Shown here piece by piece: positions 290 through 17,174 of a DNA stretch of 26,345 bases. Location: positions 1-26,345 of the IMG/VR virus record IMGVR_UViG_3300017771_000088. One strand, given 5' to 3'. Positions within the stretch are counted from its first letter, which is position 1; the number at the start of each line of letters is the position of its first letter. Source of the stretch: a virus. Below the pieces are notes generated by a model. It searched no databases and was not told the origin of the DNA. It saw only the letters and a list, made by a program, of their open reading frames with translations. Made by a program: the position numbers and the translations under genes.

Positions 290-299
290 GTGTCTTCTT

Positions 300-304: not shown

Positions 305-309
305 TTCCC

Positions 310-471: not shown

Positions 472-479
472 GAAACCCT

Positions 480-487: not shown

Positions 488-490
488 AAA

Positions 491-502
491 TATAGTACTA
501 TA
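491..502 (+). other. Perfect 12-bp palindrome in the gp25 leader
   Basis: TATAGTACTATA equals its own reverse complement and lies at or just before the expected start of transcription from the late promoter at 480-487. The related word TATAGTATA occurs at 25581-25589 after the gp13 late promoter. Function unknown; AT-rich sequence makes short palindromes fairly common. Confidence 0.4.
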
Positions 503-510
503 AGTTTCTA

Positions 511-912: not shown

Positions 913-2841
913 ATGTCACTTTTAAACTTTACTAGTCTGGATTTTGACCAGATTAAAGAAACACTTAAACAATATTTACAATCCAACTCGAATTTTACGG
1001 ATTATGACTTCGAGGGGTCTAATTTGTCAACAGTTTTAGACGTTTTAGCATATAATACCTACATTACTTCATATAATGCCAATATGATCTCAAATGAGGT
1101 CTTTATTGACAGTGCAACCCTTAGAGAAAACGTTGTTGCACTTGCTAGAAACATCGGATACGTTCCAAGATCTAAAAAAGCAGCAATAGCAAGGATAAAT
1201 TTCTCTGTAGAGCCAGGAATTTCACCTCCACCTACAACAATTACGCTAAAAAAAGGGCCAGTTGTTGGATCGAGTGCATTTGGAGGTCAATCTTTCGTTT
1301 TTGGTGTTACAAAAGACGTTACAAAGACTGTGGTGGATGGAGTAGCATATTTTTACGATGTAGATGTTAAAGAAGGCACTGTAGTTGATCAAAAATTCCC
1401 ATATTCTACAAATAATATCAATCAGAGGTTCATTTTATCGAACGCAGGGATCGATTTAAGCACTTTAGAGGTCTATGTAAGACCAAGTTCGACTTCTTCT
1501 CTACTTTCTAGTTACACAAGGCAGGATAGTCTGTTTGATGCGGTCACAGGGAGTTCAATAACTAAAGATTCGCTGATTTATTACATTCAAGAGATCGAAG
1601 ATGAACAATATGAGATCATTTTTGGTGACGGAATCTTTGGAAAAGCACTTGCAGACGGAAATATAGTTGAAGTTTCGTATATTATATCAAATGGATCAGA
1701 AGCTAACGGTATCAGTAACTTAAGTTTTAGTGGAAAATGCACTTATACTCGAAATGCAGTCGAAAACACCATAACTAGTGGTATTTCACTCGTAACTGCT
1801 GATAATCCCTCTAGTGGTGGAGACGAAATTGAGAGCGTTGACTCTGTTAAAAAGTTTGCACCGCAAATTTATGGTACTCAAAACCGTGCTTTGACCTCAA
1901 ATGACTATGAAATCTTAATTCCCAACAAAATTTACCCAGAAACTGAGTCAATTTCGGTTTATGGTGGTGAAGAACTAGTTCCTCCACAGTATGGGAAGGT
2001 GTTTATTAGCATAAAACCAAGAACTGGAGACTTTGTTCCTAATGCAATTAAGGAAAATATCAAAAGAGACCTTAGAAAATACTCTGTAGCAGGAATTGTG
2101 CCTGAAATACTCGATCTCAAGTATCTCTACCTTGAGACTGACAGTAATGTTTACTATAATACCAGTCTTGCACCTAATGTATCGATGGTTTCATCAACAA
2201 TTCTGAACAATATCAACAAATTGGCTGCATCTGCAGAGTTAAATAAGTATGGAGCAAGGTTCAAATACAGTAAATTCCTTAAAGTTATTGATCAAAGTCA
2301 TGAATCTGTAACCTCCAACGTTACAACCGTTGAAATGAGACGAGATTTAAGATTGTCAATAGATCAATTTGCAGAATATGCAATTGATTTTGGTAATCAG
2401 TTTCATATTTCATCCATGGATGGATTCAATATTCGATCCACTGCATTTAAAGTATTGGATATTGGTAATGAAGTTTACCTTTATGACATTCCAAACACTG
2501 ATAAAAAGACTGGATCACTTGGTTTATTCTCTTTAGACTCACCAAGTTCAACAACCCCAATGATTGAAAGATCAAATGTAGGAGTTGTCAACTATAATAC
2601 TGGTCGAATGACTCTTAACCCTATCAACATTATCTCAGGTAAAACAAAAGATGCTCAACAGATCATGGAAATATCTGTTGTTCCCGAATCAAATGACGTA
2701 ATTGGATTACAGGATCTTTATTTGCAACTAGATACTAGTAGTGTAGAAATGGTTGTTGATGAAATTGCTTCAGGTGCAGACCCATCAGGATCAACATATA
2801 CAGTTACATCAAGTTATACAGACAGAAAGATTATAAGATAA
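913..2841 (+). CDS. 6: Baseplate wedge subunit gp6 (baseplate J-like)
   Basis: The product has 642 residues against 660 for T4 gp6. The N-terminus carries the conserved pattern LDFDQIKETLKQYL...FTDYDFEGSNL...LAYNTYI...NEVFIDSATLRENVV...GYVPRSKKA (residues about 9-95). The middle carries the baseplate J core, EIIFGDGIFGKALADGN near residues 234-248, followed by V.VSY and a Gly/Asn turn. The C-terminal half (QNRALTSNDYEILI near residue 320, then KVFISIKP) fits the region that forms the gp6 ring in T4. gp6 dimers link neighbouring wedges into the inner baseplate ring. The ATG directly abuts the gp25 stop codon, and the next gene starts three bases after its stop, so the three form one translational unit. 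Confidence 0.95.
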   Translation: MSLLNFTSLDFDQIKETLKQYLQSNSNFTDYDFEGSNLSTVLDVLAYNTYITSYNANMISNEVFIDSATLRENVVALARNIGYVPRSKKAAIARINFSVEPGISPPPTTITLKKGPVVGSSAFGGQSFVFGVTKDVTKTVVDGVAYFYDVDVKEGTVVDQKFPYSTNNINQRFILSNAGIDLSTLEVYVRPSSTSSLLSSYTRQDSLFDAVTGSSITKDSLIYYIQEIEDEQYEIIFGDGIFGKALADGNIVEVSYIISNGSEANGISNLSFSGKCTYTRNAVENTITSGISLVTADNPSSGGDEIESVDSVKKFAPQIYGTQNRALTSNDYEILIPNKIYPETESISVYGGEELVPPQYGKVFISIKPRTGDFVPNAIKENIKRDLRKYSVAGIVPEILDLKYLYLETDSNVYYNTSLAPNVSMVSSTILNNINKLAASAELNKYGARFKYSKFLKVIDQSHESVTSNVTTVEMRRDLRLSIDQFAEYAIDFGNQFHISSMDGFNIRSTAFKVLDIGNEVYLYDIPNTDKKTGSLGLFSLDSPSSTTPMIERSNVGVVNYNTGRMTLNPINIISGKTKDAQQIMEISVVPESNDVIGLQDLYLQLDTSSVEMVVDEIASGADPSGSTYTVTSSYTDRKIIR

Positions 2842-2844
2842 CAC

Positions 2845-5800
2845 ATGACCGATAAAAGAGTTCAAATCAATAAAGTTGTCAAAGAGCAACTTCCTTCTTA
2901 TGTGAAGGATGACAGCCCTTTAGTCGGTGAATTTTTAAGTGCATACTATCAGGGTCAAGAATATCAAGGTGGCCCAATTGATATAATCAGTAATCTAGAC
3001 TCTTATATACAATTAAACAAATCAGGCACTCTAGTCGGTTTTACGACCCTCTCAAGTGCTGTTGGCCAATTTGATCAAACTATATCTGTAAAGGATACAA
3101 CTGGATTTCCTGAGAACTATGGTTTATTAAAAATAGATAATGAGATAATAACATATACTGGATTAACTACAAATTCATTTACTGGATGTATTCGTGGATT
3201 TAGTGGTATTACATCATTTAGTAATCCTGATGAACCAGAAGAATTTGTATTCTCTACTTCTAAAGCAGGAACTCATGCAGTTGGTGTTGGAACAAGTGGT
3301 GGTGTAGTTGAAAATTTAAGCACATTATTTCTAAAAGAATTTTTAAAGAAGTCTAAGAAACAATTTTTACCTGGTTTTCAAAAAGATCTAAACTCTGCAT
3401 TAAACCAACCACAGTTTATTCGTCATTCAAAAGACTTTTATAACTCTAGAGGAACTGACGAATCATTTAAATTACTATTCAAGTCATTATATAACGAAGA
3501 AGTAGATATTGTTAGACCTGCTGATTATGTAATTGCACCATCTGATGCAAATTACAGAAAAACTCGTGACATAATAGTTGAGGCAATACAAGGTGATCCT
3601 ATGGATCTAGAGAATAGAACACTATTTCAAGATCCCATAGAGAATCTATCTAGAGCATATGGCCCTGTATCAATGGTTGAAAGAGTAAGGGTTGGTCTTT
3701 TAACAGAAACATATTATAAAGTCAGTATTGATGCTTCTTTTGGAACAGGTAGTTCTGATGAATTACTTTATGGTAATTTTGCTATCCATGCCAATTCTAA
3801 AAACGTTGGATCTGTTGGTGCAGCACAAACTTACATTGATGTAGATTCAACTATAGGTTTCCCCGATGAAGGAACTTTAACCTTCAAATATCAAAATGGA
3901 ACTACAGGAATTTGCACATATGCAAGCACAAACGTTACTCAGTTTTTAGGCATAACCACAACTGGTATTACTACCACTATTAAGGATGCTACAGCGATTA
4001 GACAGAATACTTATGTTTATGCCTCTGGGCAAGCAAACAGCACTGCAGGGGTCACTACAGACGGTATACGTTGTAGAATAACAGGTGTATTGAGTGGTGT
4101 AGAACTTCCGAATACTTTTTATCAAAGACAGGGTGCTAAGATCAAATTAAAGTCTTTAGGTAAAATTGCTAAAGTAACTGATTTTAAATCAAACAACTGG
4201 GTTTTTAATGTTCAACCAAAATATGATGTTAATACTATTACGTTACAAGATGCTTCAGGCCCAACATATGAAATAGTAACTGATGATTTTCATAGAATAA
4301 GATTAAATGATACGATAACAGTTCAAACATCAACTGGAGATTTAGATTCATCCTACACTGTTACTGACGTTTTAAGTAACGTTAAAATTAGAATGCAGGG
4401 GTCTACTATAAGTGATCTTACTGCCGTTCTTTCTATAAGAAAATTACTTAACAAACCAAATGCAGACGGAAGTGGAGTTAACAATAATCATCAACATTTA
4501 AATGATTATACTGCAAATACACAGAATGTTTATATGCAAGAAGTTGGATATGCTCATACTCTTTCCAAAATTAAAAATTTAGTTGCATCCAACTCTTTAC
4601 CAACTTATGGTGATGATCATAAATTAAATCCAAGCACACAAAAAATTAATTTATCAGGAACTTTCCAAGGTGGTCAGACTATCATTGGAATAACAACTGG
4701 TTCTAATGATCATAATTTCTTTAGTGGAGATGCTATCTACTATACACCACAAAAAAATGCTGCAGGAGGAATAGATAGTTTTCTGTTTAGTGAGGGATTA
4801 TATTTCGTTGAAAGAGTAAACTTGAATGATATAAGATTAGCAAAATCTAGATCAAATTTATATGATGGCAATTACACAAAGGTCTCAGAAACAACTGTTA
4901 CTACAGATATTGTAAATAATACTTTTGAAAAATATGAGTTTCATAAAAAACAGATTTTACCTCAAAAACTGTTTAGAGAAATTGATATGCCAGTTTATGA
5001 TGGTAAAGAATATAAAACAGAAATAGGATATAATGGAATCTTAATTAATGGCGTTGAAATACTAAGTTATAAATCTCAAGATCTCTGTTACTATGGTAAT
5101 ATTAAGTCTATAGACGTTACAGGTGGTGGAAGAAAGTATGATGTTATAAATCCACCTCAATTGGCAATTAACGATGGTGTAGGAGCAGGTGCTACAGGAT
5201 ATGTAGCAACTAGAGGTAATTTGCAAGAAATACGAGTTCTAGAGCCTGGCTTTGATTACGTCGATGTTCCTAAAGTATCAATAAGTGGAGGAAATGGAAC
5301 TGGTGCTGTAGCAGAATGTAAAATGGTTACAGTTCCTTATCAGGTAGTATTTAATTCTGGTTCAGGATCTCAAACTGTTGCTATAACTACTACTATTGTT
5401 AAAAACTCTCTTGGAATTAATACAGAGGGTAACTATAATGTTGGATTTTTAACATATCATAAACTTAGAAATTATGAAAAAGTTATATACGATACTCTTG
5501 GAGAAAAGGCTTTATCTGGATTAAGCACTGGAGCAGTTTATTATGTTAATACAGATGCTCCTACTGGAATAACTACAATATCCAGTTGGTTGGATTATGA
5601 CGGAGCAAAGTGGTATCCAGAAAAAACGATTAGACTTCATAGAAACTTAAATGAAGCAGTCTCTGGTATTAACACAATATCATATACTGGTTTTGGTGAA
5701 GGAAACCACCAGTTTCGATCATTTAATGGTAAATTGCAAGTTGGTAGTATAAATGTATTGGATTCAGGTGAAGGATATGAAAATAAACTTAAAACATGTC

Positions 5801-8800
5801 AACCAACTGGTATCAATACTGCACTTGATATAATCACAATCAATAACCACGATTATAAGACAGGTGAGATTGTAACATATTCTTCTGATTCTGATGGAAC
5901 CGCTATAGGAGGTCTTTCAAACAGTAAAAAATATTATATTTATGTTGTAGATGGTAATAATTTTAAGTTATCGACTGTAGGTGTTGGAACAACTGCAAAA
6001 GACTTTTATCTTAGAACAAAACAATATGAAAACTTTACATCCGTTGGAGTTGCAACTCATAGTTTTAACTATGACCCCATTGTTGTAAACATTGAAGGTA
6101 AAGTTGGTATAAGTTCAATTGAGGGCGACAATTTTCAATGTGTGCCTCAACCTCTCTTTAGGGGTGAAGTAACATCTATTCATTTAACTGATGGAGGAGT
6201 TGGATATGGTGCTTCTGAAATACTTAATTTTAATAGACAACCTAGAGTTGACTTATATACTGGTGTAAGTGGAGAATTATTGCCTGTTGTTGCTAACGGT
6301 CAAATCATTGACGTTGCAATTAATAATAGAGGCCAATCATATAATACTCCTCCTAGTATTTCAATTACAGGTATTGGAACTGGTGCAGAGTTAGTTCCAG
6401 AAATAGTAGGTGGTCAAATTAGATCAGTTAAGATAATTAAAGGTGGTATTGGTTATGGTGCATCTACAACCTCATTAAATGTAGAATCTTCTGGTGAGTT
6501 TGCCATATTCCAAGCAAATCTTAAGACATGGCAAGTAAATGAAGTTAGAAAGAATTTTACTAATATAGATGATTCAGATGTATTCATAGAAAAACCAACA
6601 CAGATTGGTCTTGAATTACAATGCTCACATGCATATGCACCAAGAGGTTTAAGAAAGATTGTATATCAAAATAATTCAGATGGCGATGCTTTATATGGTA
6701 GCAGAGATTTAACTTTATCGGGTGGTGTAGAAGAGAATAAAACACAACACTCACCGATTATTGGTTGGGCATATGATGGTCTTCCAATATATGGGCCTTA
6801 TGGATATGAGAAAAGCACTGGTGGATCGGTAACTCAACTGAATTCTGGATATTCTGTAGATTTAAAAACTAATAGACCACCAACTAGTGTTTTCCCACAA
6901 GAGTTCTTTGTTGAAGACTTTACATGGAATAGTAATACTGACGAAAGTTACCTTGATGAAAATAACGGTAGATATGGAGTAACTCCTGAATATCCAAATG
7001 GAATATATGCATACTATGCAACTCTTGAATCAACAGTAACTGATGATGCTACTGATCCGTTTGACAATTTTAAGAAACCAAAATTCCCATACTTATTAGG
7101 TGAAAGTTTTGGAGCACAACCAAATCAATTTAACTTTTTATCTAAAAATAATCAGGATCAAATTAATCTTAACAAAACTGATTGGGTAAGAAATACTGAA
7201 CCATATGAATTATTACAAGATAATAGTTCTTATGATTATGTAAGTCAATCATACAAATATGTTACTCAAGAGGGTTCTATTGTCTATGCTTCAGAGGGAT
7301 CTGTAGAAAAAGTTGGTGTTGTTACTGGTGGTTCTTCATATCAAGTTGGTGATAAACTTGTCTTTGAAGAAAAAGTTGCTGAAAATTTTGAAACAGTTGG
7401 AAAGGTATCAAGAGTAAGAGGGCCTGGAATTGGAACTATTTCAGTTACTAATACCAAATTAAATAATATAGAGTTTTATCCTGCTGATGAAAGAGGTAGA
7501 TTTGTTGGAGTTCATACCACTCCACTCAATTTACAAAATGGAGATAAAGTTTACATTTCTGGAATATCAACCACAAATTCTAAACTTGGTGGCAAGTCTT
7601 ACACTATTGGAATATCATCTTCAAAATTGGTAGTTTCTGAAGCTATACCAAAAATTTCTGTTTCGGGATTAGTTACATTCTTTAGTGTTCAGGGTAGATT
7701 ACCTTCTCCAAATGCTGATATTAATAATCTCAATCTAAGGGAAAATGATATTTTAAAAGTTGGTATTGGCACTCAGATGGAAGAGGTTAAAATACTTAAT
7801 ATTGATGCTGCAAATTCTAGAATAAGAGTATTAAGAAATCAAAATAATTTAAGTGATGCTAATAGTGGAGTTGCTCATACTATTAGAACAACAATAGAGG
7901 AAGATCCTAGAAAGTTTAAGATAGATGTTGGTTTTAATACTACATTTAATAATGAAGTTGATTTTGAATATTACTTTAATCCAGTAGAATCTGTTGGTGT
8001 TGGAACTACTGCTGGGCCTGGAATTGGAACGACAGCATCAATATTAAATCCTGGTGGTGGCCCAAGTCAAGTATTCTTACCTTCCAGATCTATACGTTTA
8101 CCAAACCACAAATTTAAAACTGGTGATCAAGTAATATATAATCGAAATACTGGTAATGCGATAGGTATCGCAACTAACCGTGCTAGAGCTAATTTGTTTG
8201 ATGTAGCAGATCGTCTTTCAGAAAATGTTCCTTTATTTGTTGCTAGATTAAATGATGATTTTATTGGATTATCTACAGTTAGAATTGGTTTAGGAACAGC
8301 AGGTGGTGGAATAGATCCAGAGGATGTATTTACTGGTGTTGGAGTCACTATTAAACAACAAAGTTTAATGTATTTTACTGGCATTGGAACTGGTAAATAT
8401 CATAGTCTTAGAAGAAATTTTAATGAAACAGTAAAAGGATCCGTAGAGAAGAATTTAATTACTGTATCTGCTGCTAGTAGCCATGGATTAACTAATAATG
8501 ATAGGGTATATTTAACTGTAAATGCTGGAATTACCACAACCGTTCCTGTCAAATATAATAAAGCAAATAGAAAATTAATTGCTAGAGAATTAGATTTTGT
8601 AGCAGCTGGTGTTAATACTTCAGGATCTATAATTGGTAATCAAAATACAATTACCATAGCAAGTCATGAAATGGTTACTGGCCAAAGAGTGGTTCATACA
8701 GCGACTACATCTGTGGGTGGATTGACTCATGACGAAGAATATTTTGTGTACGTAGTTGATAAAGATAAAATTAAATTATGTGGTAGTAGATTCCAAACAA

Positions 8801-11800
8801 ACCAAAGTAAACCTGTATTTGTTCCGTTAGATGTATCGGCAGTAGGTGCTGCGGGAACATTGGGTCTTGTCAATCCACCATTAGAGTTTTACAAAAATGG
8901 AACTATAACATTTGATTTATCGGATTCATCATTATCATTTACAAAGGTTGCAGATACGTTACCCGCTTTTGATTTAGAACTTTATACCGATTATAATTTC
9001 ATTCATGAATATACTTCAAATGAACAGTCATCTACTTTTAATGTAAGTAGAACTGGAACTGTTGGTATTGATGGTAAACTAATATTGACATATAATCAAA
9101 ATACTCCAAAAATACTTTATTACAACTTAGTTGCAAATACGTCATCAGATAATCCAGATATAAACAAAGAACTTGTATTAGACAGAGAAATTATAGGAAA
9201 TAATTCTATAAACTTTAGAGATAGTCGTTATGCTGGTCAATTTAATATCCTTACAAATTCTACGAATACGTTTACATATGATTTAAATAGATTCCCTGAA
9301 GAAGAATCATATACAAGTTCAACTACAACGATATTAAGTTATGACACTACATCTAAAACTGCATATGGCCCAATAGCAGCAGTTTCATTATCTGAAAAAG
9401 GAAAAGGATACACTAGATTACCTGGTGTTTCAACTGTTACTTCTGACACAGGATCTGGTGCTATTTTAGAAGCATCTAGTAGATCAATAGGAGTTCCTCA
9501 AACAACAAAACTTGAAAGTATTGGTTTTGATTATCCATCAGATTTTACATTAAGACCTCAATCAAAATTACCTCAGATCATTAAGATATCAGCACTATCT
9601 GGTCTTAAATCTGTTGGTATCACTTCTTATGGTAGAGGATATAATCATCCACCATCATTAGTTCTTCTTGATGGTCTTACAAGAGCGAAAGATAATGATG
9701 CGGATTTATCTTATAATTTATCAACTCCTGATAGAGCTGGGTTTGTAGATATTATAGAAAACACTTTTGGATTATCTAACGTTACTCCAATTATAGTTCC
9801 AGTTAATAATCCTAATGGAATTAGAGTAACTAATCTTGTTTATGATTCATCTTCAGATACTGTTGCAGCAACATTAAAAGTTGCTTATAGTTTAGCAGCA
9901 GAATTTCCTATAGAGATTGGTGATAAATTACTAATTGAAAATGCTAGTGTTGGAGTTGGATCTACAGGAAAAGGATATAATTCTGATCAATATGATTATA
10001 AAACTTTTGAAGTAACACAAGTTCATCAAAATTTAGGTAACGTTGGTATTGTAACTTACAGTATGGGTGGAAATGTTCCAACTGGTGAAACACCTGGTAA
10101 TTTTAATACCATATTATCATCAGCAGTATTAGTCAGAGAAAGAGATTTTCCACAATTCTCTCCAGAATTACAAGTAAACACATTTAACTCTAAAGAGACA
10201 TTAGTATCTGAAACTAGTGTTGGCCCTGTTTCTGGTATTGTTGCTGAATATGATCCAGCGAGTCAGTGGTTGACTGTAGAAGCTGCAAGTGATTTTGAAG
10301 TTGGTAAATTAATAGAATCTACAACTACAGGTGCTAAAGGAACAGTATCTGAAATAGTTCTTACCTTTGATACTAATTTCTTAGTAGATTACTATTCTAT
10401 GGTTAATAATGGATGGGAATATGAAACTGGTTTCCTAAGTAACATTCTACAGGTAACTCATGAAAACGAATACTATCAAAGATTTTCATATGCGATAAAA
10501 TCTAGAGTATTCATGGATAAATGGAAAGATATTGTTAATAATTTAACTCACACTGCAGGATTCCAAAAATTTAGTAATTTACAAGTAGAATCGAATTTAC
10601 CAGTTGCTCAAAAAGCCTCAATGGTAGTTGGAACTTCTGGAACAGTAACTGGTGTTATTGATTTACAAGGATATCAAAGTTTACATGAAGTTAATAACTT
10701 TGATTTAGTTACAGAAAATTTAAAATCAAGATCTCCTGATGCTGGTAATCTCTCTGACGAAATTACTTTCCAGAATCGTATTTTAATTGACTATGCCGAA
10801 TCTGTTGGAAACAGAGTTGTTTCTATTGATAATATTAGCGGTGATTTTAACGATTTACCAAGAACTACAGCATTCTCAGAAGTGGGTAGATTTGATATTT
10901 CTGGCAATAAAGAAAATAGATTTATGGTATATGTGAAAGATAGATTATTTGAAGGTGAGAGACAATTAATGATGGTTAATGCTTTATTTGATCCAATTAG
11001 TGGTCAATCTATGATTAACCAGTATGGTCAAGTCGAAACTATAAGAGATCTTGGATCTATGGATTCTAGTGTTGATGGTAGTGAAGCAGTTCTTAGATTT
11101 TTCCCAAATAAGAGTGAGTTTAACAATTATAATGTAACAACTCTTTCATACAACCTTAATGAACTTGGTCTTACAACTTCATTAACTGCTGGTATATCAA
11201 CTAGCATAGGAGCAGGGTCAAATCCAGTAGGAGCACTTGTTCATATCGGTGCTGCCACAACACTAGGTGGAACTGCTCATGGTGGCGGTGAGGTCATTGT
11301 GGCCACCGTAGGAAGTGCAACCACAACAGGGCTTCCAAGTGCTGCTGGTAAAGCACCATTTGAGATGTTCTGCCCAAGATCTGCTAAAACTATAGTTGCA
11401 ATCGCAACAAGTGAAGGAACAGTTGAATATAACGAATTAAGCATGGTTATGCATCAAAGCAATGTAGGTTTAGGATCTACTGTTGCGTTTGAACAATATG
11501 GGCAATTAACCATTCATAACAGAAGAGATAATCTTGCTGCAGAACCTTTAGGAACATTTAGACCTCATGTAGTTGGTCTTGGAACCACTGCCCAAATTCA
11601 AATTGGATTTACACCAAATGCTGGAATTACAACTGCATTTATTAATTCAGTTACTATAGGAATATCATCTGAATCATATACAGGTTTAGGAACAGTCAAA
11701 TTAAAGAATGGATCATTAATTGCACAATCAACATCCATACCATCAAGATCTGCACCTTATCCTGTAGGTGTTGGTAGCTATGTTGAAGAATTTGATGCAG

Positions 11801-14800
11801 CATACGCCATTGTTCAAGTCAAAGATACTACAAACGATAGGTATGAGTTCTCTGAGATTATGATGGTTGATGATGATACTCGTGTATTCATGACAGAGTA
11901 TGGAAATATAATAACTGGAGCAGGTGTCAATGCAAATGCAACTGGTATAGGAACTATAGGTGGAAGAAGAGATGGATCAGATTGTTTTACAGAAATAACA
12001 TTTGTTCCAAATGCAAATACGGATGTTGAAGTTAAGACATTCATACATGCACTGAAATCAATTGAGGGCACAGATCCTAATGAAATAGAACTTCAATCTG
12101 GATCTATTCAAACTAAGTTTGATGTATATGAGGGAACTTTCTTTGGATCTAAGACTAGTTTCCCAATATTGAATGAAACTAATCAGATATTTAAAAAAGA
12201 CTTTGATGGATCTAGCACCGATATTATAAGCACAACAAATAACACTATTAGTATTCCAAACCATTTCTTTGTAACTGGTGAAGAAGTTGAATATTCTGTT
12301 AAACAACCAATAGTAGGATGCACAACTACAGGTGTTGGAGCGACCACAGATCACATTGGTATAGCTGCAACACCTTCTACTTCTCCTGCAAGTGTAACTT
12401 ATCTTCCAGATTCAGTATTTGTTATAAAGGTTAGTGATACTTTAATTAAACTTGCATCAACTGCAGAAAATGCATTGAAATCTATTGCACTTCCATTAAG
12501 TCTTACTGCTGTTGGTGTGGGAACTTCACATAGTTTAACAAGTAAAAATGAAAATACAAGGGCATTAATATCAATTGATAATATCATTCAAAGCCCTATC
12601 GTGGGTACTGGTGTTACTACATCTCTTGGAGTGAGTTTTGTTCAGAGTGAATCCATAATGTTTACTTCAGGTATAACTTCATTCTTTAGTGGAGATGTTA
12701 TAAAGGTTAATAATGAGATGATGAAGATAATTGCAGTTGAAAATGCAGGTATTAGTAGTGCTATTAGGGTTCATCGAAATTGGATGGGAACAAAACTTGC
12801 TGCACATGCCAATCATGATGTTGTTGAAAAAATGACTGGTAATTATAATATTAATAATAACACTCTTAATTTTGCCGAAGCACCCAAAGGTGGTAGACCT
12901 ATAAGCGTTGGAAGTACAGGTCTTCCATCTAGTGATAGAGACTTTACTGGTATAACAACCACATCAAGTTTCAGTGGTAGAATCTTTAACAGGTCTGGTA
13001 TTAAGGGTGGTAACTTTGATGCTTATGCTAGAAATTATGCCATAGATGATATATCACGCTCCTTTGATGGTCAAACTGAAGTATTTACTCTCAAACAAAA
13101 TAAAACAAATGTAACTGGTATTGCTACAAACCTTGGTATTGTAATGGTAAATGGAATATTGCAGGGTGCTGGTCAATTAAATGATTATCAATTATCTGAA
13201 GTTTCTGGAATCACATCTATAACATTTACAGGAACCGCATCATCTATCGCTAATGATGTTAACACGGCAACTGTTCCTACTGGTGGTATTATTATATCAG
13301 TTGGATCAAGTGAGGGATTAGGATATCAACCTTTAGTTGGTGCTGGTGCTACGATAGGTTTTAGTGCTTCTGGTATTGTTACATCAGTCAGCATTGGTAA
13401 TAGTGGATCTGGTTATAGGGTGAACCCAGGCTATGCTGGTTTGTCATCAACAAGTTCAATTGGTGGTGTTGGAATAGCAACTGAGATTAGAGTTGGTGTT
13501 GCCTTTACAACTTCTACAGGAACACCTAACATTCAATTCATCGGAACTGCTGCAGTTACAAATGGTCGTGTCGTAAGTATTGCTATTACACAAACTGATC
13601 CTGTTCCTGGCTTTACTGGTGTAGGTTCAACTATATTTGAAGCAATCATTGATGCTCCATTACCATATCAAGACATTCCTCTTTGGTATGATCATGCAGC
13701 AACACCAGGTGTTGGTGGATCTCAAGCAAGGGCAAACATCACTGTTGGTGTTGCAACCACTGGTGGTAGTGTGATTGACTTTGAAATTACTAATACAGGA
13801 TTTGGATATGGTGAATCTCAGGTATTGACTGTTCCTACATTTGCAACTGCACCTGGTGAATCATATGCGGTTCCTGTAGAGCAAGTTCCATTCAGACCAT
13901 TCCAATTAACACTACAAAAAGTTCATCATGATGAATTTAATATGTGGACAATGGGTGAATTACAGGCTCTTGATGATTTTTCAAATCTATTCAATGGATC
14001 TAGAAAAGCATTCCCACTTACAGTTGGTGGTGAGGCATTTGCCATACAAGCAAGAACTGGTTCAAATATAGTTGTTCAAAATACTATTATTATTACTATA
14101 AATGATGTATTACAGGTACCAGGTGAGGGTTATACATTTAATGGTGGTGGAACGATAACATTTACTGAAGCACCAAATCCTGATGATGTGATGAGAATAT
14201 TCTTCTATAGAGGAACTGGTGGTGAAGACGTAAAAGATAGAGATATTGTAGAAACAGTTAAAGTTGGTGATGACTTACAAATTAGATTTGATCCTGCTTA
14301 TAATACAAAAACATTTGTTGAGTTCCCAAGAGCAGTTCATGAGTTAAAATCATCAGATACAGTTGTAACGAATCAATATTATGGAAGAGGTATAGGTGAT
14401 AGTGATACTGAAACTAGACCAGTTAAATGGTATAGACAACTTAATGATAGATTCATTGACGGAAAGATAGTTCGTAAGGATAGGCCACTATATGAACCTA
14501 GTCTATTCCCAACTGCATATCTAATACAATCAGTTGGTGTTGGTCAAACAGAAGTATTCATTGATAGTTGTAAACCATTCTTTAATCCTGAGAATGAAAA
14601 CCCTTCAGATAGGAACTTCCAAAAAGATATTCAAATTGTTAATGCGAGTGCACAATATGAGTTTCTTGCTGGTGCTGCTGCAACTGCAATCGTATCTATC
14701 GCCAATACAATATCATTCTTCTCAATTACATCAGGTGGTGATGGTTACACATCTGTTCCTGAAGTTAGGATACAACAACCTATAAGTATTGGTGGAACTC

Positions 14801-15588
14801 CATTTGTGGGTATTGGAACCACTGCAACGGCAATTGCGACTGCAACAATCGCCAATGGATCAATATCATCGATTACAGTGGGAATTAACTCTGGAATTGT
14901 TGGAACTGGTTATACTTCTGCTGCACCTCCTGTGGTTCTAATTGCTCCACCTACATATGTTAGGGAAGAAAATACCGTTGATTTATATGAAGGAGACTTT
15001 GGTGTTGTTACTAAAGTTGGTATAGTGACAAATATTTCTGACGCAAATAATGCGGGAATTGGTATTGGAACTGGAATTGTATTTGATTTGTATATTCCAA
15101 AGGGTTCTCCACTAAGAGATGAAAATATTAATAGCCCTGATGCTGTAACAAGAAGTGGATTACAGACTGGATATTACTTTACAGTTAGTAATTCAAATAT
15201 TGGTTCTGGTGTTACTGCAGTTTCTATGACTGGTTCTATTGGATATGTTGGTGTTGGAACTACTGCTTTAGATAACATATATGAAGTAGCACACCATGTT
15301 GGAATAACAACTATTGGAATCGGCACTGATCAATCAGAGCTAGCAACAAGAGTATTCTGTAGAGTTCTAAATTGGAATGGTTTACAGAACACTGTTGGTT
15401 ATTCAACGGTGGGCCAAGGGCATAGCACCCGATACTTAGGTGACTTTAGTTGGGGTCGATTACAACTAAATGACAGACAAATAGCACAGGCATATACCGC
15501 CAATATTAACGACGGTGTTACTGGTATAAAGACAGGGCCACAAGTTAAGAGAAAGATAGCTCTCAAATCTCAGAACTATGTTGTCTAA
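2845..15588 (+). CDS. Giant modular baseplate wedge protein at the gp7 position, with YHYH-type domain
   Basis: The 4247 residues (about 450 kDa by estimate) lie between gp6 and gp8, where T4 encodes gp7 (1032 residues). The N-terminus (1-60; KDDSPLVGEFLSAYYQGQ) and residues 155-300 (RHSKDFYNSRGTDESFKLLF, then VDIVRPADYVI and SDANY) match a conserved start seen in phage baseplate wedge proteins. A second core-like block, NEYYQRFSYAIKSRVFM with HTAGFQKF, lies at about 2541-2600. Between and after these lie many small beta-rich modules: GxGY units near 750-827, 1105-1215, 2172-2277, 3506-3668 and 3955-4037; H/TGE units near 597, 993, 1747, 1868, 1931 and 3131; 'IDNEI...RG' units near 66, 320, 1615 and 3259; a threefold repeat at 2693-3072; and two 'VNGxLQ' units near 3402 and 3711. 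A YHYH-type domain lies at about 1245-1445. No signal peptide or membrane segment is seen. I infer an elongated wedge or fibre-like component. The gp7 equivalence rests on position and the conserved ends. Confidence 0.85.
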   Translation: MTDKRVQINKVVKEQLPSYVKDDSPLVGEFLSAYYQGQEYQGGPIDIISNLDSYIQLNKSGTLVGFTTLSSAVGQFDQTISVKDTTGFPENYGLLKIDNEIITYTGLTTNSFTGCIRGFSGITSFSNPDEPEEFVFSTSKAGTHAVGVGTSGGVVENLSTLFLKEFLKKSKKQFLPGFQKDLNSALNQPQFIRHSKDFYNSRGTDESFKLLFKSLYNEEVDIVRPADYVIAPSDANYRKTRDIIVEAIQGDPMDLENRTLFQDPIENLSRAYGPVSMVERVRVGLLTETYYKVSIDASFGTGSSDELLYGNFAIHANSKNVGSVGAAQTYIDVDSTIGFPDEGTLTFKYQNGTTGICTYASTNVTQFLGITTTGITTTIKDATAIRQNTYVYASGQANSTAGVTTDGIRCRITGVLSGVELPNTFYQRQGAKIKLKSLGKIAKVTDFKSNNWVFNVQPKYDVNTITLQDASGPTYEIVTDDFHRIRLNDTITVQTSTGDLDSSYTVTDVLSNVKIRMQGSTISDLTAVLSIRKLLNKPNADGSGVNNNHQHLNDYTANTQNVYMQEVGYAHTLSKIKNLVASNSLPTYGDDHKLNPSTQKINLSGTFQGGQTIIGITTGSNDHNFFSGDAIYYTPQKNAAGGIDSFLFSEGLYFVERVNLNDIRLAKSRSNLYDGNYTKVSETTVTTDIVNNTFEKYEFHKKQILPQKLFREIDMPVYDGKEYKTEIGYNGILINGVEILSYKSQDLCYYGNIKSIDVTGGGRKYDVINPPQLAINDGVGAGATGYVATRGNLQEIRVLEPGFDYVDVPKVSISGGNGTGAVAECKMVTVPYQVVFNSGSGSQTVAITTTIVKNSLGINTEGNYNVGFLTYHKLRNYEKVIYDTLGEKALSGLSTGAVYYVNTDAPTGITTISSWLDYDGAKWYPEKTIRLHRNLNEAVSGINTISYTGFGEGNHQFRSFNGKLQVGSINVLDSGEGYENKLKTCQPTGINTALDIITINNHDYKTGEIVTYSSDSDGTAIGGLSNSKKYYIYVVDGNNFKLSTVGVGTTAKDFYLRTKQYENFTSVGVATHSFNYDPIVVNIEGKVGISSIEGDNFQCVPQPLFRGEVTSIHLTDGGVGYGASEILNFNRQPRVDLYTGVSGELLPVVANGQIIDVAINNRGQSYNTPPSISITGIGTGAELVPEIVGGQIRSVKIIKGGIGYGASTTSLNVESSGEFAIFQANLKTWQVNEVRKNFTNIDDSDVFIEKPTQIGLELQCSHAYAPRGLRKIVYQNNSDGDALYGSRDLTLSGGVEENKTQHSPIIGWAYDGLPIYGPYGYEKSTGGSVTQLNSGYSVDLKTNRPPTSVFPQEFFVEDFTWNSNTDESYLDENNGRYGVTPEYPNGIYAYYATLESTVTDDATDPFDNFKKPKFPYLLGESFGAQPNQFNFLSKNNQDQINLNKTDWVRNTEPYELLQDNSSYDYVSQSYKYVTQEGSIVYASEGSVEKVGVVTGGSSYQVGDKLVFEEKVAENFETVGKVSRVRGPGIGTISVTNTKLNNIEFYPADERGRFVGVHTTPLNLQNGDKVYISGISTTNSKLGGKSYTIGISSSKLVVSEAIPKISVSGLVTFFSVQGRLPSPNADINNLNLRENDILKVGIGTQMEEVKILNIDAANSRIRVLRNQNNLSDANSGVAHTIRTTIEEDPRKFKIDVGFNTTFNNEVDFEYYFNPVESVGVGTTAGPGIGTTASILNPGGGPSQVFLPSRSIRLPNHKFKTGDQVIYNRNTGNAIGIATNRARANLFDVADRLSENVPLFVARLNDDFIGLSTVRIGLGTAGGGIDPEDVFTGVGVTIKQQSLMYFTGIGTGKYHSLRRNFNETVKGSVEKNLITVSAASSHGLTNNDRVYLTVNAGITTTVPVKYNKANRKLIARELDFVAAGVNTSGSIIGNQNTITIASHEMVTGQRVVHTATTSVGGLTHDEEYFVYVVDKDKIKLCGSRFQTNQSKPVFVPLDVSAVGAAGTLGLVNPPLEFYKNGTITFDLSDSSLSFTKVADTLPAFDLELYTDYNFIHEYTSNEQSSTFNVSRTGTVGIDGKLILTYNQNTPKILYYNLVANTSSDNPDINKELVLDREIIGNNSINFRDSRYAGQFNILTNSTNTFTYDLNRFPEEESYTSSTTTILSYDTTSKTAYGPIAAVSLSEKGKGYTRLPGVSTVTSDTGSGAILEASSRSIGVPQTTKLESIGFDYPSDFTLRPQSKLPQIIKISALSGLKSVGITSYGRGYNHPPSLVLLDGLTRAKDNDADLSYNLSTPDRAGFVDIIENTFGLSNVTPIIVPVNNPNGIRVTNLVYDSSSDTVAATLKVAYSLAAEFPIEIGDKLLIENASVGVGSTGKGYNSDQYDYKTFEVTQVHQNLGNVGIVTYSMGGNVPTGETPGNFNTILSSAVLVRERDFPQFSPELQVNTFNSKETLVSETSVGPVSGIVAEYDPASQWLTVEAASDFEVGKLIESTTTGAKGTVSEIVLTFDTNFLVDYYSMVNNGWEYETGFLSNILQVTHENEYYQRFSYAIKSRVFMDKWKDIVNNLTHTAGFQKFSNLQVESNLPVAQKASMVVGTSGTVTGVIDLQGYQSLHEVNNFDLVTENLKSRSPDAGNLSDEITFQNRILIDYAESVGNRVVSIDNISGDFNDLPRTTAFSEVGRFDISGNKENRFMVYVKDRLFEGERQLMMVNALFDPISGQSMINQYGQVETIRDLGSMDSSVDGSEAVLRFFPNKSEFNNYNVTTLSYNLNELGLTTSLTAGISTSIGAGSNPVGALVHIGAATTLGGTAHGGGEVIVATVGSATTTGLPSAAGKAPFEMFCPRSAKTIVAIATSEGTVEYNELSMVMHQSNVGLGSTVAFEQYGQLTIHNRRDNLAAEPLGTFRPHVVGLGTTAQIQIGFTPNAGITTAFINSVTIGISSESYTGLGTVKLKNGSLIAQSTSIPSRSAPYPVGVGSYVEEFDAAYAIVQVKDTTNDRYEFSEIMMVDDDTRVFMTEYGNIITGAGVNANATGIGTIGGRRDGSDCFTEITFVPNANTDVEVKTFIHALKSIEGTDPNEIELQSGSIQTKFDVYEGTFFGSKTSFPILNETNQIFKKDFDGSSTDIISTTNNTISIPNHFFVTGEEVEYSVKQPIVGCTTTGVGATTDHIGIAATPSTSPASVTYLPDSVFVIKVSDTLIKLASTAENALKSIALPLSLTAVGVGTSHSLTSKNENTRALISIDNIIQSPIVGTGVTTSLGVSFVQSESIMFTSGITSFFSGDVIKVNNEMMKIIAVENAGISSAIRVHRNWMGTKLAAHANHDVVEKMTGNYNINNNTLNFAEAPKGGRPISVGSTGLPSSDRDFTGITTTSSFSGRIFNRSGIKGGNFDAYARNYAIDDISRSFDGQTEVFTLKQNKTNVTGIATNLGIVMVNGILQGAGQLNDYQLSEVSGITSITFTGTASSIANDVNTATVPTGGIIISVGSSEGLGYQPLVGAGATIGFSASGIVTSVSIGNSGSGYRVNPGYAGLSSTSSIGGVGIATEIRVGVAFTTSTGTPNIQFIGTAAVTNGRVVSIAITQTDPVPGFTGVGSTIFEAIIDAPLPYQDIPLWYDHAATPGVGGSQARANITVGVATTGGSVIDFEITNTGFGYGESQVLTVPTFATAPGESYAVPVEQVPFRPFQLTLQKVHHDEFNMWTMGELQALDDFSNLFNGSRKAFPLTVGGEAFAIQARTGSNIVVQNTIIITINDVLQVPGEGYTFNGGGTITFTEAPNPDDVMRIFFYRGTGGEDVKDRDIVETVKVGDDLQIRFDPAYNTKTFVEFPRAVHELKSSDTVVTNQYYGRGIGDSDTETRPVKWYRQLNDRFIDGKIVRKDRPLYEPSLFPTAYLIQSVGVGQTEVFIDSCKPFFNPENENPSDRNFQKDIQIVNASAQYEFLAGAAATAIVSIANTISFFSITSGGDGYTSVPEVRIQQPISIGGTPFVGIGTTATAIATATIANGSISSITVGINSGIVGTGYTSAAPPVVLIAPPTYVREENTVDLYEGDFGVVTKVGIVTNISDANNAGIGIGTGIVFDLYIPKGSPLRDENINSPDAVTRSGLQTGYYFTVSNSNIGSGVTAVSMTGSIGYVGVGTTALDNIYEVAHHVGITTIGIGTDQSELATRVFCRVLNWNGLQNTVGYSTVGQGHSTRYLGDFSWGRLQLNDRQIAQAYTANINDGVTGIKTGPQVKRKIALKSQNYVV
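3041..3240 (+). repeat. 'IDNEI...RG' module, copy 1, in giant 1
   Basis: Encodes TISVKDTTGFPENYGLLKID then NEIITYTG...SFTGCIRGFSG. The pattern is a strand, 'DTTGFP', a short strand with IDNEII.YT, then a Gly/Arg turn. Related copies are at 3805-3960, 7690-7920 and 12621-12837 in this gene, and at 23630-23880 in the second giant gene. Confidence 0.7.
3805..3960 (+). repeat. 'IDNEI...RG' module, copy 2 (divergent), in giant 1
   Basis: Encodes TYIDVDSTIGFPDEGTLTFK followed by GICTYASTNVTQFLGITTTG. The first half matches copy 1 (DTTGFPENYG against DSTIGFPDEG); the RG turn is lost. Confidence 0.55.
4636..4890 (+). repeat. H/TGE module, copy 1 (divergent), in giant 1
   Basis: Encodes DHNFFSGDAIYYTP...LFSEGLYFVERVNLNDIRLAKS. 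The module pattern is a strand, N-H, two hydrophobic residues, (T/S)G(E/D), V/I.Y, then 40 or so residues later Y.V......IKL. Confidence 0.6.
5095..5325 (+). repeat. GxGY module pair A in giant 1
   Basis: Encodes IKSIDVTGGGRKYDVINPPQ and LQEIRVLEPGFDYVDVPKVS, each followed by a Gly-rich GTGA/GAGA turn. The pattern 'G.i..i.v...G.gY..pP.v.i.g..GtGA.a...' recurs many times in the window. Confidence 0.75.
5824..6024 (+). repeat. H/TGE module, copy 2, in giant 1
   Basis: Encodes ITINNHDYKTGEIVTYSSD...GGLSNSKKYYIYVVDGNNFKLS. This is the clearest example of the module, with NH, TGE, V.Y, GL, YYIYVVD and FKLS in order. Confidence 0.75.
6161..6490 (+). repeat. GxGY module triplet B in giant 1
   Basis: Three units in a row: VTSIHLTDGGVGYGASE, IIDVAINNRGQSYNTPPSIS followed by GIGTGAEL, and IRSVKIIKGGIGYGASTTSL. 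The spacing is about 45 residues. Confidence 0.78.
6580..7180 (+). other. YHYH-type domain inside giant 1
   Basis: Residues about 1245-1445. The diagnostic C-terminal part of the YHYH family is plain: HSPIIGWAYDGLPIYGPYGY at 1302-1321, then LDENNGRYGVTPEYPNGIYA and FPYLLGESF. The name-giving YHYH tetrapeptide is not present. YHYH domains occur in environmental bacterial proteins and in tail structural proteins of T4-like cyanophages; their biochemical role is not established. Confidence 0.8.
7690..7920 (+). repeat. 'IDNEI...RG' module, copy 3, in giant 1
   Basis: Encodes LRENDILKVGIGTQMEEVKI then DAANSRIRVLRNQNNL...GVAHTI. It aligns with copy 4 (DVIKVNNEMMKII...IRVHRNWMGT...AAHANHDVV): lKV...E..kI......IRV.RN......AH. 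Confidence 0.65.
8086..8300 (+). repeat. H/TGE module, copy 3, in giant 1
   Basis: Encodes RSIRLPNHKFKTGDQVIYNR...PLFVARLNDDFIGLS. It keeps the strand, NH, TGD, V.Y and the closing 'FVARLNDDFIGLS' strand. Confidence 0.7.
8449..8600 (+). repeat. H/TGE module, copy 4 (short), in giant 1
   Basis: Encodes ITVSAASSHGLTNNDRVYLT followed by NAGITTTVPVKYNK. It keeps the strand, SHGL, ND, and V.L, but the second half is short. Confidence 0.6.
8638..8870 (+). repeat. H/TGE module, copy 5, in giant 1
   Basis: Encodes TITIASHEMVTGQRVVHTAT...GGLTHDEEYFVYVVDKDKIKLC. It is close to copy 2 in its second half (GLSNSKKYYIYVVDGNNFKL against GLTHDEEYFVYVVDKDKIKL). Confidence 0.75.
9363..9675 (+). repeat. GxGY module pair C in giant 1
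   Basis: Encodes IAAVSLSEKGKGYTRLPGVS with DTGSGAIL, a less regular unit, and LKSVGITSYGRGYNHPPSLV. Confidence 0.7.
10300..10380 (+). repeat. 'SGA' module in giant 1
   Basis: Encodes VGKLIESTTTGAKGTVSEIV. It matches the 'G..i.G.tSGA.a.v..i' unit that occurs several times in giant 2 (17470, 18645, 19840, 21979). Confidence 0.55.
10921..11160 (+). repeat. Threefold repeat in giant 1, unit 1
   Basis: Residues 2693-2772: FMVYVKDRLFEGERQLMMVN...SMINQYGQVETI...EAVLRFFPNKSEF. Shared with units 2 and 3: a hydrophobic strand, (E)RxxM(M)V, YG with a following strand, and a strand ending F.PN. Confidence 0.7.
11386..11670 (+). repeat. Threefold repeat in giant 1, unit 2
   Basis: Residues 2848-2942: KTIVAIATSEGTVEYNELSM then VAFEQYGQLTIHNRRDNLAA then AQIQIGFTPNAGI. 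It starts 155 residues after unit 1. Confidence 0.7.
11803..12060 (+). repeat. Threefold repeat in giant 1, unit 3
   Basis: Residues 2987-3072: YAIVQVKDTTNDRYEFSEIM then RVFMTEYGNIITGAG then FTEITFVPNANTDVEVKTF. It starts 139 residues after unit 2. Confidence 0.7.
12238..12540 (+). repeat. H/TGE module, copy 6, in giant 1
   Basis: Encodes TISIPNHFFVTGEEVEYSVK...PDSVFVIKVSDTLIKLASTA. It has the NH, TGE and V.Y core, a longer loop, and a closing IKL strand. Confidence 0.7.
12621..12837 (+). repeat. 'IDNEI...RG' module, copy 4, in giant 1
   Basis: Encodes FFSGDVIKVNNEMMKIIAVE then SAIRVHRNWMGTKLAAHANH. It has the NNEMMKI core, the RN turn and a closing His-rich segment like the giant 2 copy at 23630. 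Confidence 0.68.
13051..13240 (+). repeat. 'VNGxLQ' fibre-type module, copy 1, in giant 1
   Basis: Encodes SRSFDGQTEVFTLKQNKTNV then IVMVNGILQGAGQLNDYQLS then ITSITFTGTA. The pattern F.G....F.L.......i.i.vNg.lQ....Y......ItFt is common in phage tail fibres and baseplate-attached proteins. Confidence 0.65.
13363..13850 (+). repeat. GxGY modules D in giant 1
   Basis: Encodes IVTSVSIGNSGSGYRVNPGY, later VSIAITQTDPVPGFTGVG, and VIDFEITNTGFGYGESQVL, separated by longer Gly/Thr-rich spacers. Confidence 0.65.
13978..14220 (+). repeat. 'VNGxLQ' fibre-type module, copy 2, in giant 1
   Basis: Encodes FSNLFNGSRKAFPLTVGGEA, then IIITINDVLQVPGEGYTFNG and ITFTEAPNPDDVMRIFFYRG. It is a better match than copy 1 to the tail-fibre pattern 'N.vLQ.Pg.gY.f.gg.ItFt.AP...d...i.y'. 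Confidence 0.7.
14710..14955 (+). repeat. GxGY module pair E in giant 1
   Basis: Encodes ISFFSITSGGDGYTSVPEVR with VGIGTTATAIAT, and ISSITVGINSGIVGTGYTSA with PPVVLIAPP. It is the last GxGY unit before the conserved C-terminal segment. Confidence 0.72.
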
Positions 15589-15617: not shown

Positions 15618-17174
15618 ATGTCGGCAATCATAACGGATCAAATAAGAATATTAAATGCAAAGAATTTCGTTGCTGGTGTATCAACTTCGACTAATTCTTA
15701 CTATGCCTTTGTGGGTTTACCTAATCCAACAGCATATCAAAGTGATTGGGATTCAAATCCTCCAGCACCAATTGATAATTTCAATAACATGAATGAATAT
15801 CATGATAGTATGATTGCTGTGAAGAAGATAACTGCTGAAGATGTAAAACAAATTGTTCCAAAATTGAATTGGAACTCTGGAACAACATATGATTACTATA
15901 GACACGATTATAGTATTTCTAATGCACCACCAAACTCTGGTGGAACATCTTTGTATACTGCAAACTATTTTGTTGTTAATAGTGACTTTAGAGTTTATAT
16001 TTGTCTACAAAACGGAACGACACCTGAAACACCTGATGGGAAACCATCTCTAGACGAACCAACCTTCACAGATTTAGAACCAAGAACACCAGGTACATCT
16101 GGTGACGGATATATTTGGAAATATTTGTATAGTATCAAACCTGCAGATTTAATTAAATTTGACTCTACTGATTTCATGCCAGTTCCAGCAAATTGGGGTG
16201 ATAATGCTGCAGATGCTTCTGTAAAAAATAATGCTGTAGATGGCGGTATTAAAATTGTTGTTGTTAAAAACAGAGGAACTGGTATAGGAACTGCTAACCA
16301 AACTTATACTAGAGTTCCAATTAAAGGTGATGGATTTAATGCAGAATGCACCGTTGTTGTTAATAATGATGCACAAGTAGAGAGTGTTACTGTATCAAAT
16401 GAAGGATATGGATACACTTATGGTAATGTAGATCTATCTGCTGGATCTATTCCGACACCAACCTCTCCACCTACTCTTGATGTAATTATTACACCACCAG
16501 GTGGTCATGGAGCTGATATTTACAGGGAATTGGGTGCAACTAACTCATTACTATATGCAAGAATTGAAAATGATGCCGAAAACCCAGATTTCATAACAGG
16601 AAACCAATTTGCCAGAATAGGTATTCTAGAAAATCCAAAATCATTTAATTCTAATGAAATACTTACATTAGATAAAGCAAGTGCTGCATATGCTTTGAGA
16701 TTGGCGGGAACTGGATACAGTTCTGTAACATTCACTGCTGATAGTTTAGTAAAACAAACTACTGGAACAGGTGTTACTGCTGTCGGATATGTAATTAATT
16801 ATGATCAAACTACTGGTGTTTTAAAATATTGGCAAGATAGAACAATTGCTGGTTTTAATACTGTGGGAACAGCACAAACAGCTGTCGATGCAATTTATGG
16901 ATATAACACAACAAGGTTTACTTCCGAACCAACTGCTGGTGGTAGTGTAACAATTGTTGGTGGTAGTTCTAATTTATCAATCAGCACATCATTCTCAGGT
17001 CTTTCTACTACTCTAAATAATAGAACATACTACCTTGGTCAATCATTTACTAAGGGAGTTTCTAATCCAGAGGTTGACAAATATTCTGGAAATATGATTT
17101 ATGTTGATCACAGACCATCAATTACACGATCTTCCAATCAAAAAGAAGACATCAAAATAATATTACAGTTCTAA
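15618..17174 (+). CDS. 8: Baseplate wedge subunit gp8
   Basis: The product has 518 residues, longer than T4 gp8 (334). The N-terminal third matches the family: YYAFVGLPNPT near residues 28-38, DSMIAVKKITAEDVKQIVPK with LNWNSGTTYDYY near 63-95, FVVNSDFRVYICL, and TSGDGYIWKYLYSIKPADLI near 160-180 (compare GDGYVWEYLFEIPP in T4). The end, KYSGNMIYVDHRPSITRS, matches the T4 gp8 end HSGEMIYMENRPPIIMA, and both close with a strand ending in F. In between, residues about 208-281 hold a GxGY module pair that explains part of the extra length. gp8 forms part of the T4 wedge between gp7 and gp10. The gene follows its own late promoter. Confidence 0.93.
   Translation: MSAIITDQIRILNAKNFVAGVSTSTNSYYAFVGLPNPTAYQSDWDSNPPAPIDNFNNMNEYHDSMIAVKKITAEDVKQIVPKLNWNSGTTYDYYRHDYSISNAPPNSGGTSLYTANYFVVNSDFRVYICLQNGTTPETPDGKPSLDEPTFTDLEPRTPGTSGDGYIWKYLYSIKPADLIKFDSTDFMPVPANWGDNAADASVKNNAVDGGIKIVVVKNRGTGIGTANQTYTRVPIKGDGFNAECTVVVNNDAQVESVTVSNEGYGYTYGNVDLSAGSIPTPTSPPTLDVIITPPGGHGADIYRELGATNSLLYARIENDAENPDFITGNQFARIGILENPKSFNSNEILTLDKASAAYALRLAGTGYSSVTFTADSLVKQTTGTGVTAVGYVINYDQTTGVLKYWQDRTIAGFNTVGTAQTAVDAIYGYNTTRFTSEPTAGGSVTIVGGSSNLSISTSFSGLSTTLNNRTYYLGQSFTKGVSNPEVDKYSGNMIYVDHRPSITRSSNQKEDIKIILQF
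16240..16460 (+). repeat. GxGY module pair inserted in gp8
   Basis: Encodes IKIVVVKNRGTGIGTANQTY with GFNAECTVVV, and VESVTVSNEGYGYTYGNVDL. It is the same unit type as in giant 1 and lies between the two halves that align with T4 gp8. Confidence 0.7.

Follow-up and report, generated by a model that had tools for sequence, protein, structure and literature searches.

The stretch of viral DNA analysed here (the window, 26,345 nucleotides) carries gp25 (511-912), gp6 (913-2841), gp7 (2845-15588), gp8 (15618-17174) and a 2581-aa DUF4815 protein in that order. The gp7 open reading frame is located on the + strand, as are all features within it given below, and encodes 4247 aa with no internal stop codon. 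The first-pass annotation had placed a protein of this length at the gp7 position, at about four times the size of T4 gp7, and both statements hold: the reading frame is exact, the gp25-gp6-gp7-gp8 order surrounds it, the length ratio to T4 gp7 (1032 aa) is 4.1, and PHROG 2885 (‘baseplate wedge subunit’, the giant cyanophage gp7) matches the protein with E=0 and 3194.5 bits. The best stretch of that match pairs window residues 1-3579 with 5-3405 of the 4179 profile positions. While PHROGs matched, no gp7 family in Pfam or NCBIfam exceeded its cut-off for the window protein: Pfam PF23786 Baseplate_wedge scored 13.6 bits at residues 184-236, below the curated 27 bits, and NCBIfam TIGR02242, a phage tail protein domain with a cut-off of 51.85 bits, gave no match, with relatives X1 (21 bits) and phiM12 (25.6 bits) also below that value. 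PHROGs 701 and 4406, which match the window gp7 as well as compact gp7s, carry the category ‘head and packaging’, apparently a mis-categorisation. When the whole protein was compared with the PDB using phmmer, only weak matches were returned, T4 gp7 among them at E 0.046; weak stretches of Rv2002 and LpqH were taken as chance.

Searching phage records by tblastn with residues 1-330 retrieved 423 records, 410 of them named Synechococcus, Prochlorococcus or cyanophage, and residues 2486-2752 retrieved 129, of which 125 bear such names. These counts, together with PHROG 2885, indicate that giant gp7 is a known cyanophage protein and no oddity of this contig. Judged by its sequence, the window protein is a much-enlarged member of the known gp7 family, not a new kind of protein. 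Such giants have already been annotated as gp7, baseplate wedge, structural protein or ‘baseplate wedge initiator’, with relatives of 4067-6387 aa; the growth of a wedge protein proposed from the sequence is supported, but the protein is not unusual among marine cyanophages. The four PHROG 2885 giants Bellamy, S-SM2, SynMITS9220M01 and P-SSM2 share the gene position, collinear homology, module types and both core motifs with the window protein, but differ from it in length (4067-5195 aa) and module counts. Previous work has reported gp7 among the core genes of non-cyanophage T4-like genomes, and has described gp7, gp10 and gp12 as divergent enough to fall into as many as nine clusters (Sullivan et al. 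2010, PMC3037559).

Reading out the gene that follows gp6 in 16 phages besides the window gave a series of lengths. The shorter proteins are encoded by Xanthomonas phage X1 (498 aa), pf16 (523 aa), BUCT-ZZ01 (607 aa), Cr30 (767 aa), phiM12 (1007 aa) and T4 (1032 aa), and longer ones by ME01 (1942 aa) and DSL-LC02 (2514 aa plus a separate 1432-aa ORF). The S-PM2 protein has 3048 aa, in a record that is a deletion mutant, and the giants are those of Bellamy and SynMITS9220M01 (4067 aa each), S-SM2 (4156 aa), ACG-2014f (4225 aa), P-HM1 (4446 aa), P-SSM2 (5195 aa) and S-IOM18 (6387 aa).

Two motifs recur throughout this family. Motif I spans window residues 186-256 and holds GTDESFKLLF, while NEYYQRFSYAIKS/HTAGFQKF is found inside or adjoining motif II (2529-2583). 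With profiles seeded from window residues 180-262 and 2528-2600, both motifs were found in all 17 gp7 proteins of the named set, T4 included. After IMG/VR ORFs were added, motif I preceded motif II in 149/149 proteins holding both, and motif II was found downstream in 99 of the 100 proteins that hold motif I and are complete at the 3' end, the IMG/VR rows in these counts not being independent, since they include near-copies, most loci were fetched by N-terminal similarity and the iterated profiles contain their own members. The exception is a 552-aa protein (L009, complete 3' end) with motif I and no motif II. The two motifs are separated by 105 residues in T4 gp7, by 81-788 in most compact gp7s and by 2272 in the window protein; the spacer is 81-358 aa long in T4, X1, pf16, BUCT-ZZ01 and a large number of IMG/VR relatives. 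It had been proposed from the sequence that both blocks are conserved wedge sequence lying close together in proteins of ordinary length, and this is what the compact gp7s show, the blocks belonging to one gp7 family and the long middle being absent from many of its members.

The detection of the motifs in distant members was controlled in several ways. T4 motif I still scored 39.3 bits when the profile was built without T4, the highest of 2000 shuffles reaching 9.4, while T4 motif II was weak when taken alone (12.4 bits, topped by one of 2000 shuffles). A cyanophage-only profile found motif II in six of six non-cyanophage gp7s, at 2.8e-10 or lower for X1, pf16, BUCT-ZZ01, Cr30 and phiM12 and at 0.0024 for T4. 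Starting from the opposite end, a core profile made from an alignment of 19 compact IMG/VR gp7s retrieved from the PDB the gp7 of the T4-type phage Lilla1 (E 1.9e-10, both motifs) and T4 gp7 (E 2.1e-7, with a mere 3.8 bits for motif II). We used profiles because MAFFT, given five proteins that differ widely in length, put the closing motif of Cr30 and phiM12 in the wrong place. Scans with the gp7 of pf16 or X1 found one locus each, and the alignment query at least 80.

In a search of 18 proteins, sub-profiles of this compact core matched the window protein in three ordered pieces. The N-terminal helical region is found at residues 14-60 (2884..3024; 14.9 bits, E 2.7e-5), the piece holding motif I at 163-237 (3331..3555; 44.5 bits, E 1.8e-14) and the closing motif II at 2527-2578 (E 4.1e-12), or at 2529-2583 (10429..10593) with the motif II profile. 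The same two N-terminal pieces were detected in 10 of 11 large cyanophage proteins, and one piece only in ACG-2014f. As far as profile matches can show it, a small conserved gp7 core has thus been cut into three pieces (14-60, 163-237 and 2527-2578). The first-pass annotation had described two blocks about 2,200 residues apart; the separation is confirmed by the 2272 residues between the profile matches, and the core is in fact interrupted twice, since about 100 residues with one GFP module also part 14-60 from 163-237. The compact gp7s of X1, pf16 and BUCT-ZZ01 have the same core order at ordinary length, but differ from the window protein in their spacers of 181-237 aa, with 0-4 GY units and no matches to the H, GFP, NGV or YHYH modules described below.

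Three ordered core pieces imply that three sites carry additions. In the window, about 100 residues separate the helical region from motif I, 2272 part the two motifs and 1664 follow motif II. By the motif boundaries, the main insertion covers residues 257-2528 (2272 aa; 3613..10428), its edges holding a putative, weakly matching remnant of a small gp7 beta-domain, and the C-terminal extension covers residues 2600-4247 (10642..15585). That some 1,600 residues follow the second block had been noted correctly. The description of the added sequence as an insertion of modules applies between the motifs, but the roughly 1,660 residues that follow motif II were added separately at the C-terminus and form an ORF of their own in DSL-LC02. 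In that one genome a stop codon is found 18 residues past the start of the HTSGF part of the closing motif; the stop is followed by one codon and an ATG (L135:11190-11230), and the C-terminal part continues in the same frame. Both DSL-LC02 ORFs carry the annotation baseplate wedge initiator.

Among 99 complete proteins, the spacer ranges from 81 to 2690 residues and the C-terminal tail from 4 to 2889. The two vary independently, as in ME01 (spacer 1598, tail 49), another relative (L226; 162 and 1572) and DSL-LC02 (2199 and 4). A tree was built from 125 columns of 82 of the 149 core sequences (hand-thinned, with many forks open); on it, spacers of more than 1000 aa need three changes, two of which are forced by well-supported branches; a count of nine changes in tail length was set aside because some rows are cut by contig ends. 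The S-IOM18 gp7 (6387 aa, L142:116-19279) has motif I only at residue 686, behind eight GY matches, which suggests growth at the N-terminal insertion site.

Two readings would remove the need for a split core. The two blocks might be unrelated parts of one continuous ancestral fold, and within the close family of the window the middle region is indeed always present and collinear; yet compact gp7s hold both blocks close together and profiles made from compact proteins only find both in the window, so that we regard this reading as very improbable. That the long ORF joins separate genes through an assembly or annotation artefact has next to no chance of being correct: the two ORFs at the gp7 position of DSL-LC02 would fit it, but many independent contigs and isolate genomes have the same long ORF, and dN/dS is low throughout. 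In 11 segments compared with eight full-length relatives, dN/dS is 0.04-0.37, with 0.04-0.15 in the two core segments, and all gp7 segments are under purifying selection. A large gp7-position protein has also been reported in virions of S-CREM2, where a protein of about 1,937 aa gave 91 unique peptides (PMC10665884); the length of 1,937 aa is arithmetic from Table 3 of that paper, and the protein is taken as gp7 by its position.

To describe the added sequence we built profiles for five modules: GY (61 positions, GGxGYxxxPxV), H (96), GFP (60), NGV (82) and YHYH (96). Profiles trained on 17 other sequences, without the window, match the window protein 11 times for GY, six for H, two each for GFP and NGV and once for YHYH, and gave no match in 200 shuffles or in the reversed window protein. 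GFP module 1 (residues 69-127; 3049..3225) is located in the first insertion. Along the main insertion, the profiles place GFP module 2 (323-383; 3811..3993), H modules 1-3 (617-689, 855-958 and 984-1075) with a GY unit at 764-823 (together 4693..6069, a stretch that was also modelled), GY units at 1089-1217 (6109..6495), the YHYH domain at 1301-1394 (6745..7026), H modules at 1742-1856 and 1924-1993 with a weak extra match at 1864-1900 (8068..8823) and GY units at 2144-2277 (9274..9675). The YHYH domain is also recognized by Pfam PF14240, with 78.7 bits at 1298-1399 against a cut-off of 25. The C-terminal extension holds an H module at 3123-3232 (12211..12540), NGV modules at 3374-3450 and 3682-3768 with GY units between them at 3483-3540 and 3625-3663 (12964..14148), and GY units at 3935-4033 (14647..14943), one of these two also found with the window-free profile. 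When ten single-module pieces were searched against Pfam, two matches below cut-off were taken as chance.

Module numbers differ strongly among phages, with 0 to 16 H modules each. P-SSM2 has 16 H matches compared with seven in the window, and ten of them fall between its two NGV modules, an interval free of H matches in the window; module multiplication would leave such a pattern. The profile matches thus show that the added parts contain copies of a few beta-modules (GY, H, GFP and NGV) plus one YHYH domain, in copy numbers that depend on the phage. The earlier suggestions that repeat modules lie between the blocks, and that the protein grew by insertion of beta-modules, are both upheld, the former by the repeated window-free matches never seen in shuffled or reversed sequence and the latter by the compact gp7s lacking the long middle together with the module profiles. 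Modules of the same kinds occur in neighbouring genes. The window gp8 holds a GY unit at residues 238-268 (20.1 bits), which suggests that wedge proteins share the module vocabulary, and the DUF4815/VrlC-like protein (17181-24926, 2581 aa; PHROG 358, unknown function) has a GFP-type module at 2157-2211.

The gp7 of T4 (1032 aa; 5HX2, 5IV5) resembles the window protein in having the N-terminal core, from about residues 642-649, followed by motif I at 731-759 and the closing motif at 865-890 (weak alone). Unlike the window protein, it has a tail of 142 aa, is matched by none of the five module profiles and carries an N-terminal extension of about 640 residues that is not found before the core in the window. 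Residues 7-116 of X1 gp7 align to 649-761 of T4-type gp7, and PHROG 964 places a further gp7 (L158) at 642-757. Since the compact gp7s align from about 642-649, the first 640 or so residues being an extension of its own, T4 gp7 is no unexpanded reference.

We modelled one compact gp7 (L157, 607 aa) with AlphaFold2 from 19 alignment rows. The model is confident only for about residues 150-325, and the core helices are low (mean pLDDT 54.2). Residues 156-320 match T4-type gp7 765-845 (Z 8.6-9.5 over 75-79 residues, rmsd 1.5-1.9 A), and residues 237-316 match domain I of the T4-type sheath protein gp18 (Z 7.6-8.2 over 76-78 residues, 22-24% identity); the next rows of the fold search are unrelated and begin at Z 6.0. 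A Z of about 8 is near the background stated by the tool, so the gp18 assignment leans on the sequence match, in which the compact-only profile found sheath domain I in the PDB at E 1.1e-6 (9x3p) and at 8.4e-6 to 2.1e-5 (gp18 entries). Taken together, the predicted fold and the profile matches show that in compact relatives the main insertion sits inside a small beta-domain also present in T4 gp7 (765-845), and that the small version of the insert is a domain matching T4-type gp18 domain I. Domain I is a single insertion in the T4 sheath subunit, whereas the window gp7 has many GY units.

The link from these compact inserts to the GY units of the giants is indirect, as gp18 was not among the PDB matches of a profile made from 14 cyanophage gp7 GY units. 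In the PDB, GY units matched the tailspike Dpo31 with a whole-sequence E of 1.8e-4, neither stretch passing alone, and matches to armadillo designs were taken as chance. The small beta-domain itself reached 2.6 bits (E 0.18) in the window with the compact sub-profile, which did not detect it securely in Bellamy, S-SM2, SynMITS9220M01, ACG-2014f or P-SSM2, a group that takes in the nearest named relatives of the window; it was found in S-IOM18 (3e-10), P-HM1 (1.1e-6), S-PM2 (1.1e-5), ME01 (1e-4) and DSL-LC02 (0.0036).

A model of window residues 570-1420 has a mean pLDDT of 74.6 and a pTM of 0.68 and is almost all beta. Foldseek found no match for it in the PDB at E <= 0.001, and in BFVD its best match was Bellamy gp7, many further rows being nameless. 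In the model, the H module at 984-1075 resembles barrels of E1 enzymes (up to Z 8.1) and of phage endosialidases (Z 6.3-7.3), values that are at background level by the tool's own note on common scores, with the E1 enzymes, of unrelated function, scoring higher. The endosialidase barrel of K1F has been described as a sialic-acid binding site (preprint PMC12632334), and the likeness in the predicted structure is a hint at sugar binding, not evidence of it.

Baseplate precedents suggest what the two large additions might do. In Vibrio phage XM1, gp17, a 242-residue gp7 ortholog, is reported to bind two sets of six tail spikes, one through an internal loop and the other through its C-terminus (PMC10457771), and in the type VI secretion system two loops of TssG are reported to anchor two TssK trimers (PMC6300606). 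Both proteins are described as partners of two gp6/TssF copies with two anchoring elements, namely loop 80-106 and the C-terminus in XM1 gp17 and loops 1 and 2 in TssG. These elements are tens of residues long and bind separate proteins, in contrast to the roughly 2,270 and 1,660 covalently attached residues of the window protein, and the correspondence is one of chain order, with no residue mapping; XM1 gp17 was absent from the PDB sequence matches and the fold-search rows of our gp7 comparisons. The wedge protein gp32 of the freshwater cyanophage A-1(L) is reported to help hold the long tail fibre with a C-terminal loop (PMC10966104). The sheath offers a further analogy: both the baseplate and the retracted fibres are reported binding partners of gp18 domain I (PMC3004832), and a role in adhesion has been proposed for additional sheath domains (PMC9230969). 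The gene content of the window bears on the same question. Genes 9, 10, 11 and 12 come after gene 8 in T4, and no counterpart of any of them was found in window 17181-26343 between gp8 and an Ad2/gp13-like ORF that starts at 25591; this interval contains the DUF4815 protein and a 141-aa phrog_3304 ORF only.

Because of the chain-order precedents in XM1, TssG and A-1(L) and of the missing counterparts to T4 genes 9-12, we favour, at a probability of roughly 0.6, a gp7 whose split core bears two arms that serve as covalent fibres for host contact, fibre docking or both. The gp7 core would pair with two gp6 copies in the inner wedge, and the main insertion and the C-terminal extension would leave it as two arms of beta-modules, each present in six copies per tail if gp7 occurs once per wedge as in T4. 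A long arm or skirt around the baseplate had already been suggested as a possibility from the sequence. By analogy, the arms may act as peripheral fibres built into gp7, touching the host surface and/or docking tail fibres in their folded state, and could take over jobs done in T4 by gp9-gp12. A stronger version, in which the adaptor itself took over adhesion, its spike-holding sites having expanded to giant covalent arms of two kinds, each in six copies per tail, that replace the gp9-gp12 periphery with partly sugar-binding-like modules and shift host range by module gain and loss, is speculative and in our estimate rather doubtful.

A serious rival to the arms is a purely structural skirt, in which the split core is as described but the modules are non-adhesive and brace the wedges, gp8, the DUF4815 protein and the base of the sheath, thickening the baseplate. 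The GY unit in gp8 and the GFP module in the DUF4815 protein fit proteins that pack together, and with T4 gp9-gp12 lacking counterparts between gp8 and the gp13-like ORF the bulk would need another source. Yet copy-number variation as strong as that of the H modules is easier to accommodate in outward arms than in a tight scaffold, H modules match tail-fibre genes of P-HM1, P-HM2 and phiLM21 (among the best 60 of 102 records), and a weak GY match falls in a depolymerase tailspike, which together leave the skirt a possible but minority explanation. In a further reading, which appears unlikely to us, the arms have no host contact and serve mainly as a rack that keeps retracted tail fibres alongside the tail, the part played in T4 by gp18 domain I. 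Compact gp7s do hold a relative of that domain, T4 domain I mutants are reported to fail in retracting their fibres (PMC3004832), and A-1(L) is reported to fold its fibres back with the wedge holding them (PMC10966104); however, GY units are accompanied by H, NGV and YHYH modules, for which no docking role is known, and the direct link from GY to gp18 was not recovered from units of the giants.

The results give the vague annotation ‘baseplate wedge initiator’, used for proteins of four to six thousand residues, defined limits that can be tested: a single conserved core, additions at two internal sites and at the C-terminus, and a set of modules that includes, in compact relatives, a relative of a T4 sheath-surface domain. 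As far as the openly licensed literature we searched shows, neither the split core nor the presence in gp7 of a gp18 domain I relative has been described before, and we found in it no baseplate structure at high resolution for marine T4-like cyanophages. Should the arms contact the host, gain and loss of gp7 modules would be a candidate for host-range change that is missed by work on tail fibres only.

Two further observations were made at related loci. In S-SKS1 (L228:9787-16784), homology extends over part of the gp7 locus where no CDS is annotated. In ME01, residues 1271-1349 of gp7 (L136:14001-19829) match phrog_3304, the family of the 141-aa ORF of the window.
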